Shown here: positions 9,257 through 42,164 of the stretch, piece after piece | Layout of the letters: the number at the start of each line of letters is the position of its first letter | Position numbering within the stretch: the stretch's first letter is position 1 | Assembly: GCF_000021985.1 (NCBI RefSeq) | Contig: NC_011901.1 | Span: 2,480,001-2,544,000, forward strand | DNA length: 64,000 bases | DNA from: Thioalkalivibrio sulfidiphilus HL-EbGr7 | Lineage (GTDB): Bacteria; Pseudomonadota; Gammaproteobacteria; Ectothiorhodospirales; Ectothiorhodospiraceae | Direction of reading: 5' to 3' | Made by a program: the position numbers and the translations under genes | The notes under the pieces: generated by a model | Databases searched by the model: none | Told to the model about the DNA's origin: nothing | Seen by the model: the letters and a program-made list of their open reading frames with translations, nothing else

Positions 9257-9292
9257 TTTTCTCTCGCGGAGGCGCGGAGGCGCGGAGAAAAT
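9257..9292 (+). repeat. Dispersed GC-rich repeat, copy 1 (forward)
   Basis: A TTCTCTCGCGGAGG core continues as CGCGGAGG repeated with 8-bp periodicity and closes with CGGAGAAAAT. The ends (TTCTC...GAGAA) are inverted, so a hairpin is possible. It lies between the asparagine synthase and oxidoreductase-fusion genes. Confidence 0.85.
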
Positions 9293-11269: not shown

Positions 11270-11300
11270 TGCTATGAATGCTCCATGTCTGAAAATCCAC

Positions 11301-11334
11301 TCTCTCGCGGAGGCGCGGAGGCGCGGAGAAAATC
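11301..11334 (+). repeat. Dispersed GC-rich repeat, copy 2 (forward)
   Basis: TCTCTCGCGG start, three 8-bp CGCGGAG(G/A) units and GAGAAAATC end; nearly identical to copy 1 about 2 kb away. It sits just upstream of the asparagine synthase start. Confidence 0.85.
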
Positions 11335-11371
11335 GAAACTCATACAAGTAATCCAAAATGCCAAGAAAAGC

Positions 11372-11404
11372 TTTTCTCTCGCGGAGGCGCGGGGACGCAG
11401 GACA
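11372..11404 (+). repeat. Dispersed GC-rich repeat, copy 3 (forward, degenerate right half)
   Basis: The left half, TTTTCTCTCGCGGAGGCGCG, is intact. The right half has drifted (GGGACGCAGGACAAG). Copies 2, 3 and 4 fill much of the 310-bp gap 11270-11579, which holds no gene. Confidence 0.75.
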
Positions 11405-11532
11405 AGAGTGTCAATATCTGGATGCATTATCCTTCTTTGCCCTGCTGTTATATTGCTAGAGACGAAAATCATCGTATTCGCAGATCTCGCCTCGACAATC
11501 ATCCGGCAACAACACGGTTTCATCCAATCAAC

Positions 11533-11566
11533 TTTTTCTCCGCGGCTCTGCGCCTCCGCGAGAGGA
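11533..11566 (-). repeat. Dispersed GC-rich repeat, copy 4 (reverse)
   Basis: On the plus strand it reads TTTTTCTCCGCGG...CGCCTCCGCGAGAG, the reverse complement of copies 1-3. It lies 13 bp beyond the stop codon of the AMP-ligase C-terminal half. Confidence 0.8.
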
Positions 11567-36136: not shown

Positions 36137-36163
36137 TTCTCTCGCGAAGACGCTAAGAAAATC
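36137..36163 (+). repeat. Dispersed GC-rich repeat, copy 5 (forward, short form)
   Basis: TTCTCTCGCGAAGACGCTAA with GAAAATC end; one 8-bp unit shorter than the full repeat. First of five copies in 36137-36380, which fill most of the 317-bp gap upstream of the nadE-like gene. Confidence 0.75.
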
Positions 36164-36172
36164 AAAATCATG

Positions 36173-36206
36173 TTCTCTCGCAGAGGCGCTGAGGCGCGGA
36201 GAAAGT
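36173..36206 (+). repeat. Dispersed GC-rich repeat, copy 6 (forward)
   Basis: TTCTCTCGCAGAGGCGCTGA then GGCGCGGAGAAAGT; full length. Confidence 0.8.
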
Positions 36207-36217
36207 CAAAATCATGA

Positions 36218-36251
36218 TCTCTCGCGAAGGCGCAAAGACGCTAAGAGAAAA
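36218..36251 (+). repeat. Dispersed GC-rich repeat, copy 7 (forward)
   Basis: TCTCTCGCGAAGGCGCAAAG then ACGCTAAGAGAAAA; an A-richer variant of the family. Confidence 0.75.
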
Positions 36252-36265
36252 GCACTTAAAAATTG

Positions 36266-36300
36266 TTTCCTTGGCGTCTTCGCGCCTTCGCGAGAGAAAA
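36266..36300 (-). repeat. Dispersed GC-rich repeat, copy 8 (reverse)
   Basis: On the plus strand TTTCCTTGGCGTCTTCGCG ... CGAGAGAAAA. It is opposite in direction to copy 7 only 14 bp away, so copies 7 and 8 can pair into a long hairpin. Confidence 0.78.
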
Positions 36301-36343
36301 GGTTTTTGTGATTTTGGTGCCTTTACGAATAACCATGATTTTT

Positions 36344-36380
36344 GATTTTCTCCGCGTCTCAGCGCCTCCGCGAGAGAATC
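36344..36380 (-). repeat. Dispersed GC-rich repeat, copy 9 (reverse)
   Basis: On the plus strand GATTTTCTCCGCGTCTCAGC then GCCTCCGCGAGAGAATC; it matches copy 6 in reverse. It lies just past the 3' end of the HemK-type methyltransferase gene. Confidence 0.8.
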
Positions 36381-37387: not shown

Positions 37388-37423
37388 TTCTCTCTCGCGG
37401 AGGCGCTGAGGCGCGGAGAAAAG
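37388..37423 (+). repeat. Dispersed GC-rich repeat, copy 10 (forward)
   Basis: TTCTCTCTCGCGGAGGCGCT then GAGGCGCGGAGAAAAG; in the 275-bp gap between the HemK-type and acyl-ligase genes. Confidence 0.82.
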
Positions 37424-37523
37424 CAACATATTATTTGCCCCTAGATGCCAAAGCCCCTAAGAAATGCGTTCTCATCATTAATTGCTTCGTGCCTTGCTGC
37501 CTTCATACAAAATCATGATTGTG

Positions 37524-37557
37524 ACTTTCTCCGCGTCCCAGCGCCTCCGCGAGAAAA
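37524..37557 (-). repeat. Dispersed GC-rich repeat, copy 11 (reverse)
   Basis: On the plus strand ACTTTCTCCGCGTCCCAGCG then CCTCCGCGAGAAAA; inverted relative to copy 10, about 100 bp apart. Confidence 0.8.
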
Positions 37558-39183: not shown

Positions 39184-39435
39184 TCAGGCCGTGGCCTTCT
39201 TGCGCTGCACGAAGGCCACCAGGTTGGCCACGGAGTCCAGGTTCTCGGGGACCATTTCATCGTCGTCGACGGTGACGCCGAATTCGTCTTCCAGGAACAT
39301 GATGACTTCCAGGATGCCGGTGGAGTCGATGATGCCCCGCTCCAGCAGGGAGTCCCCGCTGGCGAGCTGGGACTCGTCGTCGGTGAAGAGGTAATTCTCG
39401 AGGATGTAGCCCTTTATCTTTTTTTCCAGTTCCAT
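39184..39435 (-). CDS. Acyl carrier protein
   Basis: 83 residues, acidic, all-helical. The phosphopantetheine site is Ser38 in IIDSTGILEVIMFLE (D-S-x-x shape of carrier proteins). Paired with the AMP-forming ligase just downstream, it should hold an acyl or aminoacyl thioester for transfer to the glycan by one of the locus acyltransferases (inference). Its own stand-alone gene and ligase argue against a role in fatty acid synthesis. Confidence 0.88.
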   Translation of the reverse strand: MELEKKIKGYILENYLFTDDESQLASGDSLLERGIIDSTGILEVIMFLEDEFGVTVDDDEMVPENLDSVANLVAFVQRKKATA

Positions 39436-39466
39436 TTTTTACCCCAAGTCAGAAAATCAAAGACTA

Positions 39467-39525
39467 TTCTCTCGCGGAGGCGCAGAGACGCGGAGAAAAC
39501 CCTTTATAGGGCGGGCCGTGCCCGC
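39467..39525 (+). repeat. Dispersed GC-rich repeat, copy 12 (forward) with extended tail
   Basis: The 34-bp core (39467-39500) is followed by TATAGGGCGGGCCGTGCCCGC, of which GCGGGC-CGT-GCCCGC (39511-39525) is a hairpin. The whole 59-bp unit recurs 88 bp further on as copy 13. Confidence 0.82.
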
Positions 39526-39554
39526 GAAAATGCCCAAGCAAAACACAAAAATCG

Positions 39555-39613
39555 TTCTCTCGCAGAGGCGCAGGGGCGCGGAGAAAACCGGTTATAGGGC
39601 GGGCCGTGCCCGC
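39555..39613 (+). repeat. Dispersed GC-rich repeat, copy 13 (forward) with extended tail
   Basis: The core (39555-39589) and the same hairpin tail as copy 12 (GCGGGCCGTGCCCGC at 39599-39613). Forms the left flank of the GxxExxY gene, with copy 14 inverted on the right. Confidence 0.82.
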
Positions 39614-39660
39614 CGAATAATTCAACATCTCTTAATGCCGCCCAATCTATGCCAAACGAA

Positions 39661-40053
39661 TCAAGCCCCGGGTTCTGCAAGACCATTAACAACTCGCACG
39701 ATGCCCCTCTTCATGAGGGCTTCACCGAAATTCAACAAATAGCCCAATCTTCTTTCAGTCAGTCTAAGGTAAGTCAGAAGCTGTTTTTTGTGTGCGTCAT
39801 TAAGACGCTCCACGCATTTCAGCTCAAGTATCACCTTGTCCTCGACAACAATGTCCGCACGGAAACCTTCCTCAAACCTCAATCCGCGATACTCGATCGC
39901 GATGGGAACCTGGCGCTCCACACGCAGGCCCAAGCCACACAATTCATATTCCAAGACGGTCTCATAGACCGACTCCATCAAGCCCGGTCCAAGATCACGA
40001 TGAACCTGAATTGCCACCTCGACCACATAGTCGCCGATCTGATTCTCGGTCAT
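39661..40053 (-). CDS. GxxExxY family protein, PD-(D/E)XK nuclease-like
   Basis: 130 residues. The name-giving motif is G24-L-M-E27-S-V-Y30. Asp67, Glu77 and Lys79 in FRADIVVEDKVILELK fit a PD-(D/E)XK nuclease core, and Gln91/Tyr95 in KQLLTYL fit the common QxxxY helix. The start at 40053 has a strong AGGGAGGTG site. No role in polysaccharide synthesis is known for this family; biochemical function is unproven. The gene is bracketed by inverted copies of the dispersed repeat (13 and 14) and interrupts an otherwise coherent exopolysaccharide operon, which fits a mobile or selfish insertion (inference). Confidence 0.85.
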   Translation of the reverse strand: MTENQIGDYVVEVAIQVHRDLGPGLMESVYETVLEYELCGLGLRVERQVPIAIEYRGLRFEEGFRADIVVEDKVILELKCVERLNDAHKKQLLTYLRLTERRLGYLLNFGEALMKRGIVRVVNGLAEPGA

Positions 40054-40146
40054 TCCAGACACCTCCCTGTGCCCACCCATCATCAAGCTGACATTGCAAT
40101 CAAAGAGCTTGATATACCAACCTGACTACCCATCAATTATCTTGCC

Positions 40147-40180
40147 TTCCTCCGCGCCCCTGCGCCTCCGCGAGAGAATA
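40147..40180 (-). repeat. Dispersed GC-rich repeat, copy 14 (reverse)
   Basis: On the plus strand TTCCTCCGCGCCCCTGCGCC then TCCGCGAGAGAATA. It is inverted relative to copies 12 and 13 and lies between the GxxExxY gene and the second asparagine synthase gene. Confidence 0.8.
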
Positions 40181-40196
40181 CGCTTTTGATGTTTTC

Positions 40197-42164
40197 TCAG
40201 CCCAGTCCCCGAACCAATCCCGACCCATCCACACGGAAATTCTCATGGAAACGCTCAACGAAATGGTAATGCCAGAGCTGGGTGGAGAGGATACCCACTA
40301 AGGCCATGTTGTCCTTGTAACCGATGGCCCTGCCCCGTTCGATTTTTTGGTACAGACGCTGCACCTTGGCGGCGTCGAAATAGCCGTACCGGGACACCAC
40401 TTCCGGACTGAGCAACTCCCGCACGTACTCAGTTTTGCCGCCGCTGAAGAAGGCCGGGATGTCGGGGGCCCGGTAGGGCTGCTTGTGGCGGGCAACGATG
40501 GCTTCGGGGAGATAGGGCCTCATGACTCGCTTGAGCAGGTATTTCTCGTTGAGCACCCGCATCTTGTGGCGGGGATGCAGCTGGTTGGCGAATTCGATGA
40601 CCCGGTGATCCAGGAACGGGAAACGGCCTTCCACGGAGTTGGCCATGAGCATTCGGTCGCCCTGGGAGCACAGCAGGTAGCCCGACATGAGGGTGTGCGC
40701 CTCCACGTACTGGCCCCGGTTGAAGGGGTGCCAACGCTGTATGCCTTCCGGAAGACCACCCGCCAGCCGCTCCACGGCGTCTCCCCGCAACTGCGCGCCC
40801 AGTTCTTCGGAGAAGAAGACCTTGCACTGGGCGGTGGACTGCCAGCGGGTCATGTGGCTGAAGAAGGGGGATTCGGGCTGATCCAGGCCGGTACCGAAGA
40901 AGCTCTTCAGATAAGTCAGCCCCTGGGCCTGGGTCAGGTTCAGGTAGGGGTACAGGCGCTTGATGAGCAGGGGGCGCCAGCTGGAATCGGCGTTGCGCGC
41001 CCAGAACTGGCGGATCTTGCCTTCCTTGAACAGATCGTAACCGCCCAGCACCTCGTCGGAACCCTCGCCGGTCAGCACCACCTTGTAGCCCTGCTCCCGC
41101 ACCAGGCCAGAGAGCAGGGACATGGGTACCGGCGCGGTGCGCAGCACCGGGGCCTCGGTACGCAATATCGTATCGAAGAAGGCCTCTCCGACCCGGGCCG
41201 TGTCGCAGCGGATGCTGCTGTGGTCGGCATTCACGTGGCGGATCATCTGCTGCTGGAAACCCGACTCGTCCAGGCCCTCATCCTCGAAGCCGATGGAGAA
41301 GGTGCGAAGTCGCGCGGTGCCCTGGCGGTGGATCATCGAAACCAGGGCCGAGGAATCCAGGCCGCCGGAAAGATAGGCCCCCACGGGCACGTCTGCTCGC
41401 AGCCGGATGCGCGTGGCATCGACGAGCAGTTCGCCCAGTTCGGCGGCCAGTTCGTCCTCGGTTCCTTGCCGATAACGGCCATCAATGGGGAAAGACCAGT
41501 CCCAGTAGGTTTCGCGGGTGATGTGCCCGTTCTGCACCACGATACGCTGCCCGGGCGAGACCTCCTCGATGCCCTCGAACAGGGTGTGGGGCGTGAGTGG
41601 CGCCCAGAAGGTCATGAGTTCGTCCAGGGCGGTGGCGTTGAGTCGCGGCGCAGCATCCAGGAGCGGCAGGATGGCCTTGATCTCCGAGGCGAACAGCAGG
41701 CGTCCGTTTTGCAGGGTATAGAACAGGGGCAGGATACCCACCCGGTCGCGGACCAGCACCAGGCGCTTGCGGGGGATGTCCCACAGGGCGATGGCGAACT
41801 GGCCGTTCAGGTGGTGGACGAGGTCGTCGCCGTATTCCTCGTAGAGGTGGACGATGACCTCGGTGTCCGACTGGGTGGCGAAGCGATGGCCCCGGGCGAT
41901 GAGCTCGGCGCGCAGTTCCAGGTAGTTGAAGATCTCGCCGTTGAACACCACCCACACCGAGGCATCCTCGTTGTGCAGGGGCTGACGGCCACCCTCGAGA
42001 TCGATGATGCTCAGGCGGGCATGGCCAAGACCCACATGGGCATCCCGGTAGAAGCCATGGCCGTCCGGACCCCGGTGATACAGACGATCCACCATGGATT
42101 CCAGCTCACGCTGTTCGACGGCCGGTCCGCCGTTCAGGTTCAGGATGCCTGCGATGCCGCACAT
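40197..42164 (-). CDS. asnB: Asparagine synthase-like amidotransferase, second copy
   Basis: 655 residues. MCGIAGILNLNGG gives the Cys2 glutaminase nucleophile; LYHRGPDGHGFY, FNGEIFNYLELRAEL and the PP-loop AYLSGGLDSSALVSM follow. HKQPYRAPDIPAFF and GEGSDEVLGGYDLFKE are synthetase landmarks. It is clearly diverged from the copy at 9410-11269, implying a separate amidation target. It sits 9 bp from the XrtA-type deacetylase gene upstream, as is common in exosortase A loci. Confidence 0.9.
   Translation of the reverse strand: MCGIAGILNLNGGPAVEQRELESMVDRLYHRGPDGHGFYRDAHVGLGHARLSIIDLEGGRQPLHNEDASVWVVFNGEIFNYLELRAELIARGHRFATQSDTEVIVHLYEEYGDDLVHHLNGQFAIALWDIPRKRLVLVRDRVGILPLFYTLQNGRLLFASEIKAILPLLDAAPRLNATALDELMTFWAPLTPHTLFEGIEEVSPGQRIVVQNGHITRETYWDWSFPIDGRYRQGTEDELAAELGELLVDATRIRLRADVPVGAYLSGGLDSSALVSMIHRQGTARLRTFSIGFEDEGLDESGFQQQMIRHVNADHSSIRCDTARVGEAFFDTILRTEAPVLRTAPVPMSLLSGLVREQGYKVVLTGEGSDEVLGGYDLFKEGKIRQFWARNADSSWRPLLIKRLYPYLNLTQAQGLTYLKSFFGTGLDQPESPFFSHMTRWQSTAQCKVFFSEELGAQLRGDAVERLAGGLPEGIQRWHPFNRGQYVEAHTLMSGYLLCSQGDRMLMANSVEGRFPFLDHRVIEFANQLHPRHKMRVLNEKYLLKRVMRPYLPEAIVARHKQPYRAPDIPAFFSGGKTEYVRELLSPEVVSRYGYFDAAKVQRLYQKIERGRAIGYKDNMALVGILSTQLWHYHFVERFHENFRVDGSGLVRGLG

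Follow-up and report, generated by a model that had tools for sequence, protein, structure and literature searches.

Insertion sequences and MITEs have terminal inverted repeats and gene-less derivatives, and the same is seen with the units described here. REP/REPIN sequences with their RAYT (TnpA-REP) gene are alike in combining a small gene, cognate inverted repeats and many gene-less extragenic hairpin pairs (PMC3116915). The intervening sequences of 23S rRNA genes are also alike, being about 0.4 kb long with one small ORF, terminal inverted repeats and no known transposase; the ORF is of the S23 family, the sequences have been called selfish, and a role for the ORF in mobility has been proposed (PMC4990558).

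The window analyzed here is a 64,000-nucleotide stretch of the Thioalkalivibrio sulfidiphilus HL-EbGr7 genome (G000), in which a GxxExxY gene lies between two inverted repeat copies. An earlier note on this DNA proposed that gene and repeats form a selfish unit with a REP/RAYT-like layout. This stands on the strength of repeat enrichment and gene-less alleles elsewhere, but that the protein acts on the repeats remains an inference. We consider it probable that a single small selfish element, consisting of a GxxExxY gene and its cognate inverted arms, occupies 39555-40178, working in a REP/RAYT-like manner, with its recognition, cutting and movement inferred. The passages on GxxExxY in open-access PMC contained nothing on repeats (the family's own database text was outside this scope), and a search of open-access PMC with the repeat letters gave, among the matches listed, no paper whose title concerns repeats in bacterial genomes.

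The GxxExxY Gene and Its Product

The gene sits within a run of minus-strand XrtA/polysaccharide-type genes. Four neighbours were tested, all on the minus strand: an amidotransferase of the asparagine synthase type, an XrtA-system polysaccharide deacetylase, an acyl carrier protein and an exosortase-associated acyl-CoA ligase. Only the asn_synth_AEB and deacetylase models passed their NCBIfam cut-offs among them.

39661..40053, minus strand: GxxExxY gene, PD-(D/E)XK (PDDEXK_3), 130 aa, with the ATG at 40053 and the stop at 39661
40060..40068, minus strand: Shine-Dalgarno sequence AGGGAGGTG of the GxxExxY gene, read from the sequence
40197..42164, minus strand: host gene, amidotransferase of the asparagine synthase type (NCBIfam profile search)
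39184..39435, minus strand: host gene, acyl carrier protein (under the model cut-offs)

The strong ribosome site of its own that had been attributed to the gene is borne out by a good Shine-Dalgarno sequence six bases 5′ of the ATG. The 130-aa product meets the membership cut-offs of both Pfam PDDEXK_3 (PF13366; E 2e-41, 141.5 bits, cut-off 22) and NCBIfam GxxExxY (TIGR04256; E 1.2e-40, 138.5 bits, cut-off 35), and Asp67, Glu77 and Lys79, named earlier as its PD-(D/E)XK-like residues, are as placed. In an alignment of 70 relatives, E77, K79, H88, Q91 and Y95 are invariant and D67 is kept in at least 90%. Together these residues fit D-ExK-QxxxY, the RecB/Cas4 active-site pattern. Excluded from the alignment were 11 of the 80 tblastn spans with in-frame stops (L039, L040, L044, L052, L078, L095, L101, L111, L112, L115 and L116), which are either decaying copies or span-end effects.

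The AlphaFold model of the protein has a pLDDT of 93. Its top Foldseek match, and the only one at E ≤ 0.001, is SSO0001 (4ic1; E 5.2e-4), and with VIA the model matches a Cas4-type fold with a Z of 8.7 over 100 residues (rmsd 4.5), barely over the level that the tool calls common. Taken on fold and active-site residues, the test for the PD-(D/E)XK superfamily is met, with Cas4 and other restriction-like folds as the top structural matches. The best reading of this predicted structure is a RecB/Cas4-like PD-(D/E)XK fold, with nuclease activity inferred. No sequence relatives were found in the PDB up to E 1, and Pfam and NCBIfam profile searches found no transposase domain in the protein. PADLOC gave weak matches only, the best being Cas4 (E 6.1e-4, 18 bits); identity as a CRISPR Cas4 is not met, given this weak match and the absence of cas genes among the four neighbours tested.

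Repeat Copies in the Window and Genome

The claim that inverted repeat copies flank the gene was confirmed, with 39555-39586 (plus) and 40147-40178 (minus) being 94% complementary across 32 nt, though the sides had to be corrected: since the gene is on the minus strand, it is the "forward" copy that follows the stop and the "reverse" copy that precedes the start. Further copies, listed below with the flanking arms, lie elsewhere in the window.

40147..40178, minus strand: arm upstream of the GxxExxY gene, reading TTCTCTCGCGGAGGCGCAGGGGCGCGGAGGAA on the minus strand, 93 bp before the start
39555..39586, plus strand: inverted arm downstream of the GxxExxY gene, 74 bp past the stop
39467..39498, plus strand: extra repeat copy, its first part also present at the sister species' (G044) orthologous site
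39509..39525, plus strand: GGGCGGGCCGTGCCCGC, a second repeated palindrome attached to the repeat (repeat family D1)
39597..39613, plus strand: GGGCGGGCCGTGCCCGC again, joined to the downstream arm (repeat family D1)
37390..37557, plus at 37390 and minus at 37541: gene-less inverted repeat pair; the G044 junction has CAC- and CGC-type copies
36137..36378, three plus and two minus: five clustered gene-less copies; the G044 junction has a CAC-type inverted pair
11300..11566, plus, plus and minus: three more gene-less copies (core search of the window)
9259..9290, plus strand: lone gene-less copy (core search of the window)

The palindrome GGGCGGGCCGTGCCCGC is joined to both forward repeat copies. 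Allowing up to 3 mismatches, the core TTCTCTCGCGGAGGCGC has 14 copies in the window against 0.34 expected, a number reached by none of 100 shuffles, and exact TCTCGCRRAGRCGC is found 150 times in the genome (3.46 Mb, one contig), with no occurrence of the pattern read backwards. Chance or composition as the source of the repeats is ruled out by the window shuffles, the backwards pattern and the reversed-motif control given below. An Rfam search of 39400-40250, taken up to E 1, yielded nothing.

Repeats at GxxExxY Genes across Bacteria

We retrieved 80 named GxxExxY loci from many phyla by protein similarity alone, with a best-segment identity of 60-70% for 79 of them. The earlier note had called for repeat enrichment at GxxExxY genes elsewhere as a check, and this was found: the broadened core (one mismatch) lies within 150 bp of the gene in 71 of the 80 loci, at a density of 5.71 per kb near the gene versus 0.091 per kb beyond 1 kb (63-fold), and the reversed-motif control occurs near none of the 80 and only twice in 473 kb of far sequence. 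Upstream of the gene the core is in the "+" orientation at 55 and the "−" orientation at 16 of 78 loci, and downstream it is "−" at 35 and "+" at 20 of 77. The strict layout, with "+" upstream and "−" downstream within 150 bp, is met by only 22 of 75. At many loci the arm finishes a few bases from the start codon, with its inverted counterpart past the stop.

Arms were also sought free of any motif, by locally aligning the 250 nt upstream of the gene with the reverse-complemented 250 nt downstream of it, a score of at least 30 being a pass. With three of the 80 loci omitted for flanks that were too short, 56 of 77 passed; the corresponding numbers were 9 of 337 for neighbouring ORFs and 45 of 231 for mispaired flanks. 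In a sample of 29 distant GxxExxY loci, 28 were tested and 12 passed. Six matches from a plasmid collection scored 42, 36, 120, 24, 22 and 45, in stretches that reach slightly into the gene. By eye, the GxxExxY gene of one Fusobacteria plasmid (L252, CP102406.1) has a direct repeat of some 50 nt at its flanks in place of strong inverted arms. Of 398 genomes of the phylum, 55 have a GxxExxY match, and CACRGATRNACRCRGAT is present in 24 of them; among the 343 others it is present in 17 (Fisher p 4.5e-13). This association gets little weight because most such genomes fall in one family.

Arm Types and Their Proteins

Five GxxExxY genes are held by G000, all with inverted arms (scores 62, 53, 33, 37 and 48), and the arm sequence differs at each of them.

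Window site: TCTCGCGGAGGCGC
Site after trpE: AACGCAAAGGACGCAAAGACGC
Site between carA and carB: GTCCGCAAATAAACGCGAATGG
Site after aroC: CCGCGAAGGGCGCGAAGGG
Fifth site: GACAGGATTTACATGATTAAC

The names trpE, carA, carB and aroC were read from the sequences without a family search. By eye, each arm is made up of a few units repeated head to tail, each about 8-10 nt long, and two other GxxExxY proteins of this genome have arms of the GACAGGATT and GCAAATGAACGCG types. All 13 GxxExxY genes in the genus and family genomes pass the arm test, three of them orthologous to genes of G000 (L128 being counted as L008). At the trpE-linked unit of G000 (L002), the frame past the unit starts like trpG and stops after ten codons; the trpG-like start is longer in G044 and G045.

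The protein tree has 78 rows, made up of 76 of the 80 loci and two more rows; two of the 78 are unlabelled, and branch support is weak. On this tree the CGC/CAC arm type changes once over 74 labelled loci and twice over 76 when the window and L008 are included, and 300 shuffles of the 76 labels gave a mean of 25.3 changes and a minimum of 19. Within the named set, the CGC and CAC types separate in a single evolutionary event. The columns that tell the CGC clade from the CAC clade are mostly at the C-terminus, but they cannot be separated from ancestry because there is only one split. Host G+C as the cause of repeat type is ruled out by the equal locus G+C of the two types (medians 0.55 and 0.54). 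Arm similarity correlates with protein identity across 84 genes, among them close pairs (rho 0.51, the largest of 500 permutations being 0.22). A counter-example is L008, the sister species' gene at the window's site, which has CAC arms and a protein adjoining the window's on the tree. As protein subfamilies and arm sequences covary, specificity is directly testable. Host phylum takes 40 changes on the same tree, where the least possible is 19 and the shuffled mean 50.7, with a value as low in 0 of 200 shuffles; phyla are much mixed on the tree, yet not random.

Site Occupancy and Gene-Less Copies

At the window's junction, G044 has a GxxExxY that is 70.3% identical, with CAC arms and flanks 95% and 94% identical, and after trpE its GxxExxY is 56.0% identical, with an upstream flank 95.6% identical. 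The sister species has a diverged GxxExxY at two of the five G000 sites; at the other three (carA-carB, aroC and the fifth) the two genomes' proteins are 96.8-99.2% identical. No empty allele of the window's own site was found, the sole relative with the orthologous gene pair bearing another GxxExxY.

The carA-carB junction of G042 and G045 holds a gene-less inverted pair of the CACAGAGG type, and arms of this type bracket a GxxExxY elsewhere in both genomes (L125 and L124, respectively). In thirteen more of the resolved relatives the spacer is short and free of GxxExxY-type arms; 12 of the 30 junctions surveyed were left unresolved by the script and only some of these were read by eye. An arm covers the final codons of carA together with its stop in G000. 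The carA-carB spacers of G043 (L133) and G011 (L158) are gene-less and, by eye, carry TGAGGGGTAAGGGG-like words that resemble the four-helix-bundle arms described below. Sphingomonas parapaucimobilis has fabD-GxxExxY-fabG and S. paeninsulae and Rhizobium indigoferae have the junction without the gene, and likewise Bacteroides finegoldii has radA-GxxExxY-FAD gene and Parabacteroides distasonis lacks a GxxExxY there. The empty-site allele by which the selfish-unit proposal was to be judged thus exists in gene-less form at fabD-fabG, radA and carA-carB, but not at the window's own site. Since the named occupied and empty pairs are diverged, the insertion points can be placed only roughly and loss of the gene stays possible. 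Among 56 units, whose ends are uncertain, no clear target-site duplication was found (3-mers 42 vs 39.3 expected, 4-mers 17 vs 14.2, 6-mers 4 vs 0.8), so a classical cut-and-paste transposase is not implied.

Repeat-rich regions chosen from G000 and the window contain 233 arms, with neighbours within 120 nt inverted in 132 cases and direct in 39, at a spacing of about 60 nt. Two single arm pairs fold strongly as DNA (−38.1 kcal/mol, z −10.75; −25.2, z −5.2). Exact CTCTCGCGGAGGCGC is found 60, 43, 0, 1 and 0 times in G000, G044, G042, G043 and G045, and in none of six other family genomes; G042 does carry a GxxExxY whose arm is the variant CTCTCGCGAAGGCGC, invisible to the exact pattern. CTCTCACGGRGNCAC occurs 82 times in G000, 137 times in G044 and not at all in nine others. 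The counts for CCACAGAGGNCACAGAG are 46, 22, 79, 51 and 84 in G000, G044, G042, G043 and G045, with 0 in the six other family genomes, and it is commonest in G042 and G045, both of which have the matching gene. G000 and G044 hold CCACAGAGGNCACAGAG/CACAGAGG-type arms without a matching GxxExxY, which obliges us to leave room for remnants or for spread in trans. At L237-L242, L247 and L248, CGC+, CAC−, CAC+ and CGC− arms alternate in BIME-like composite arrays some 200 nt long.

Four-Helix-Bundle Genes

Four-helix-bundle genes (TIGR02436, S23) were intended as a negative control for the arm test. Outside rRNA, inverted tandem-unit arms were found at 17 of 30 in a phylum sample (L199-L228; score of at least 30) and at all three of those in the window's own genome (L229, L230 and L231, near 875321, 2928252 and 2670349). 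Their arms fall in other sequence classes, for example GTAGGCAGTAGGCAG and AGTGAGTAGTGAG. Each gene family has its own arm language, and the architecture is not unique to a nuclease; since similar arms occur at genes that encode no nuclease, the layout alone is no proof of nuclease action. The four-helix-bundle genes are possibly a second family of such elements.

Proposed Mechanism and Alternatives

There is good support for gene and arms forming one unit that is exchanged, and undergoes turnover, at gene junctions; recognition and cutting of the arms by the protein is our best inference and has not been shown. Under this proposal the protein would recognise its own arms, with the units as binding sites and the inverted arms or their hairpin as the putative substrate, and would nick or cut there; repair or replication may then copy the unit, or gene-less arm pairs in trans, into new intergenic sites. 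Evidence against it comes from the arms of the four-helix-bundle genes, the L008 mismatch, there being a single CGC/CAC split, and the low pass rates for the strict layout (22/75) and for distant genes (12/28). Further points against it are that G042 has no exact window-type copy, that 46 CACAGAGG-type arms in G000 have no GxxExxY of that type, that phylum is partly ordered on the tree, and that target-site duplications are not clearly seen.

Several of these points would also fit inverted tandem-unit arms that are a general bacterial repeat, spread by host or foreign machinery, with the GxxExxY and four-helix-bundle genes as mere cargo and no processing of arms by GxxExxY. An unrelated family sharing the architecture, CACAGAGG-type arms in G000 and G044 without the matching gene, and the arm/protein mismatch at L008 all speak for such passive carriage. 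We nevertheless hold it to be unlikely, as arm sequence tracks the protein, the two gene families differ in arm classes, and the active-site residues are invariant in the 70 aligned relatives (with the 11 of 80 stop-holding spans left out). Doubt is stronger for a homing-type drive without transposition, where the protein cuts an occupied or arm-bearing site, homologous repair from flanks or arms copies the unit in, and one allele thereby replaces another at a fixed site. Such replacement would suit the two of five sites where the G000 and G044 alleles are diverged and their arms different between flanks 94-96% identical, as well as the carA-carB and trpE junctions, which hold different units in different relatives, but homing to one site does not yield arms and gene-less pairs at many sites (60 exact CTCTCGCGGAGGCGC in G000), and no target sequence was seen in common among units with unlike arms.

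Positions near start and stop codons at gene junctions, and the strong hairpins formed by arm pairs, would be in keeping with RNA or regulatory hairpins that act on transcript ends or stability, as some REPs do, and are bound by GxxExxY as a host or defence gene with mobility only secondary. We find this very improbable: patchy presence, same-site replacement and phylum mixing are ill-suited to a fixed host function, 39400-40250 matches nothing in Rfam up to E 1, and the PADLOC matches are weak. Returning to the selfish element of gene and cognate arms, a wider claim, for which we see the chances as evenly balanced, is that GxxExxY genes head a large unrecognised class of such elements. In this class a minimal PD-(D/E)XK protein would read inverted arrays of units 8-10 nt long and, with no transposase involved, would spread them; many anonymous interspersed repeats, of the GAGGCGCAGAG, CACAAAGACAC, CACAGATGAACACAGAT, GACAGGATTAACAGG and other types, would be its gene-less progeny, and S23 genes would head a parallel class of like architecture. 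GxxExxY, a widespread family of unknown function, gains a testable role, and some common unexplained intergenic repeats gain a likely owner. If the protein does act on the arms, the spread and persistence of short hairpin repeats in bacteria would have, next to REP/RAYT, a second and independent explanation.

Comparison with Known Systems

GxxExxY resembles the Cas4/RecB-type PD-(D/E)XK nucleases in its fold and in the D-ExK-QxxxY pattern, and is unlike them in being only 130 aa, bracketed by arms and without cas genes among the four neighbours tested. Unlike insertion sequences, the unit has no transposase domain that we could find and no clear target-site duplication. The 23S rRNA intervening sequences differ in lying within rRNA genes, in being removed from the transcript by RNase III and in encoding an unrelated protein (PMC4990558). 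RAYT is a HUH (Y1) tyrosine transposase and GxxExxY has a PD-(D/E)XK fold, so on this criterion GxxExxY is no RAYT, because the enzyme is unrelated; its arms also differ from REP/RAYT repeats in being arrays of 8-10 nt units, with many unlike arm types per genome. A further REP/RAYT criterion, that the cognate repeat form inverted doublets both around the gene and in its absence, is fulfilled for GxxExxY.
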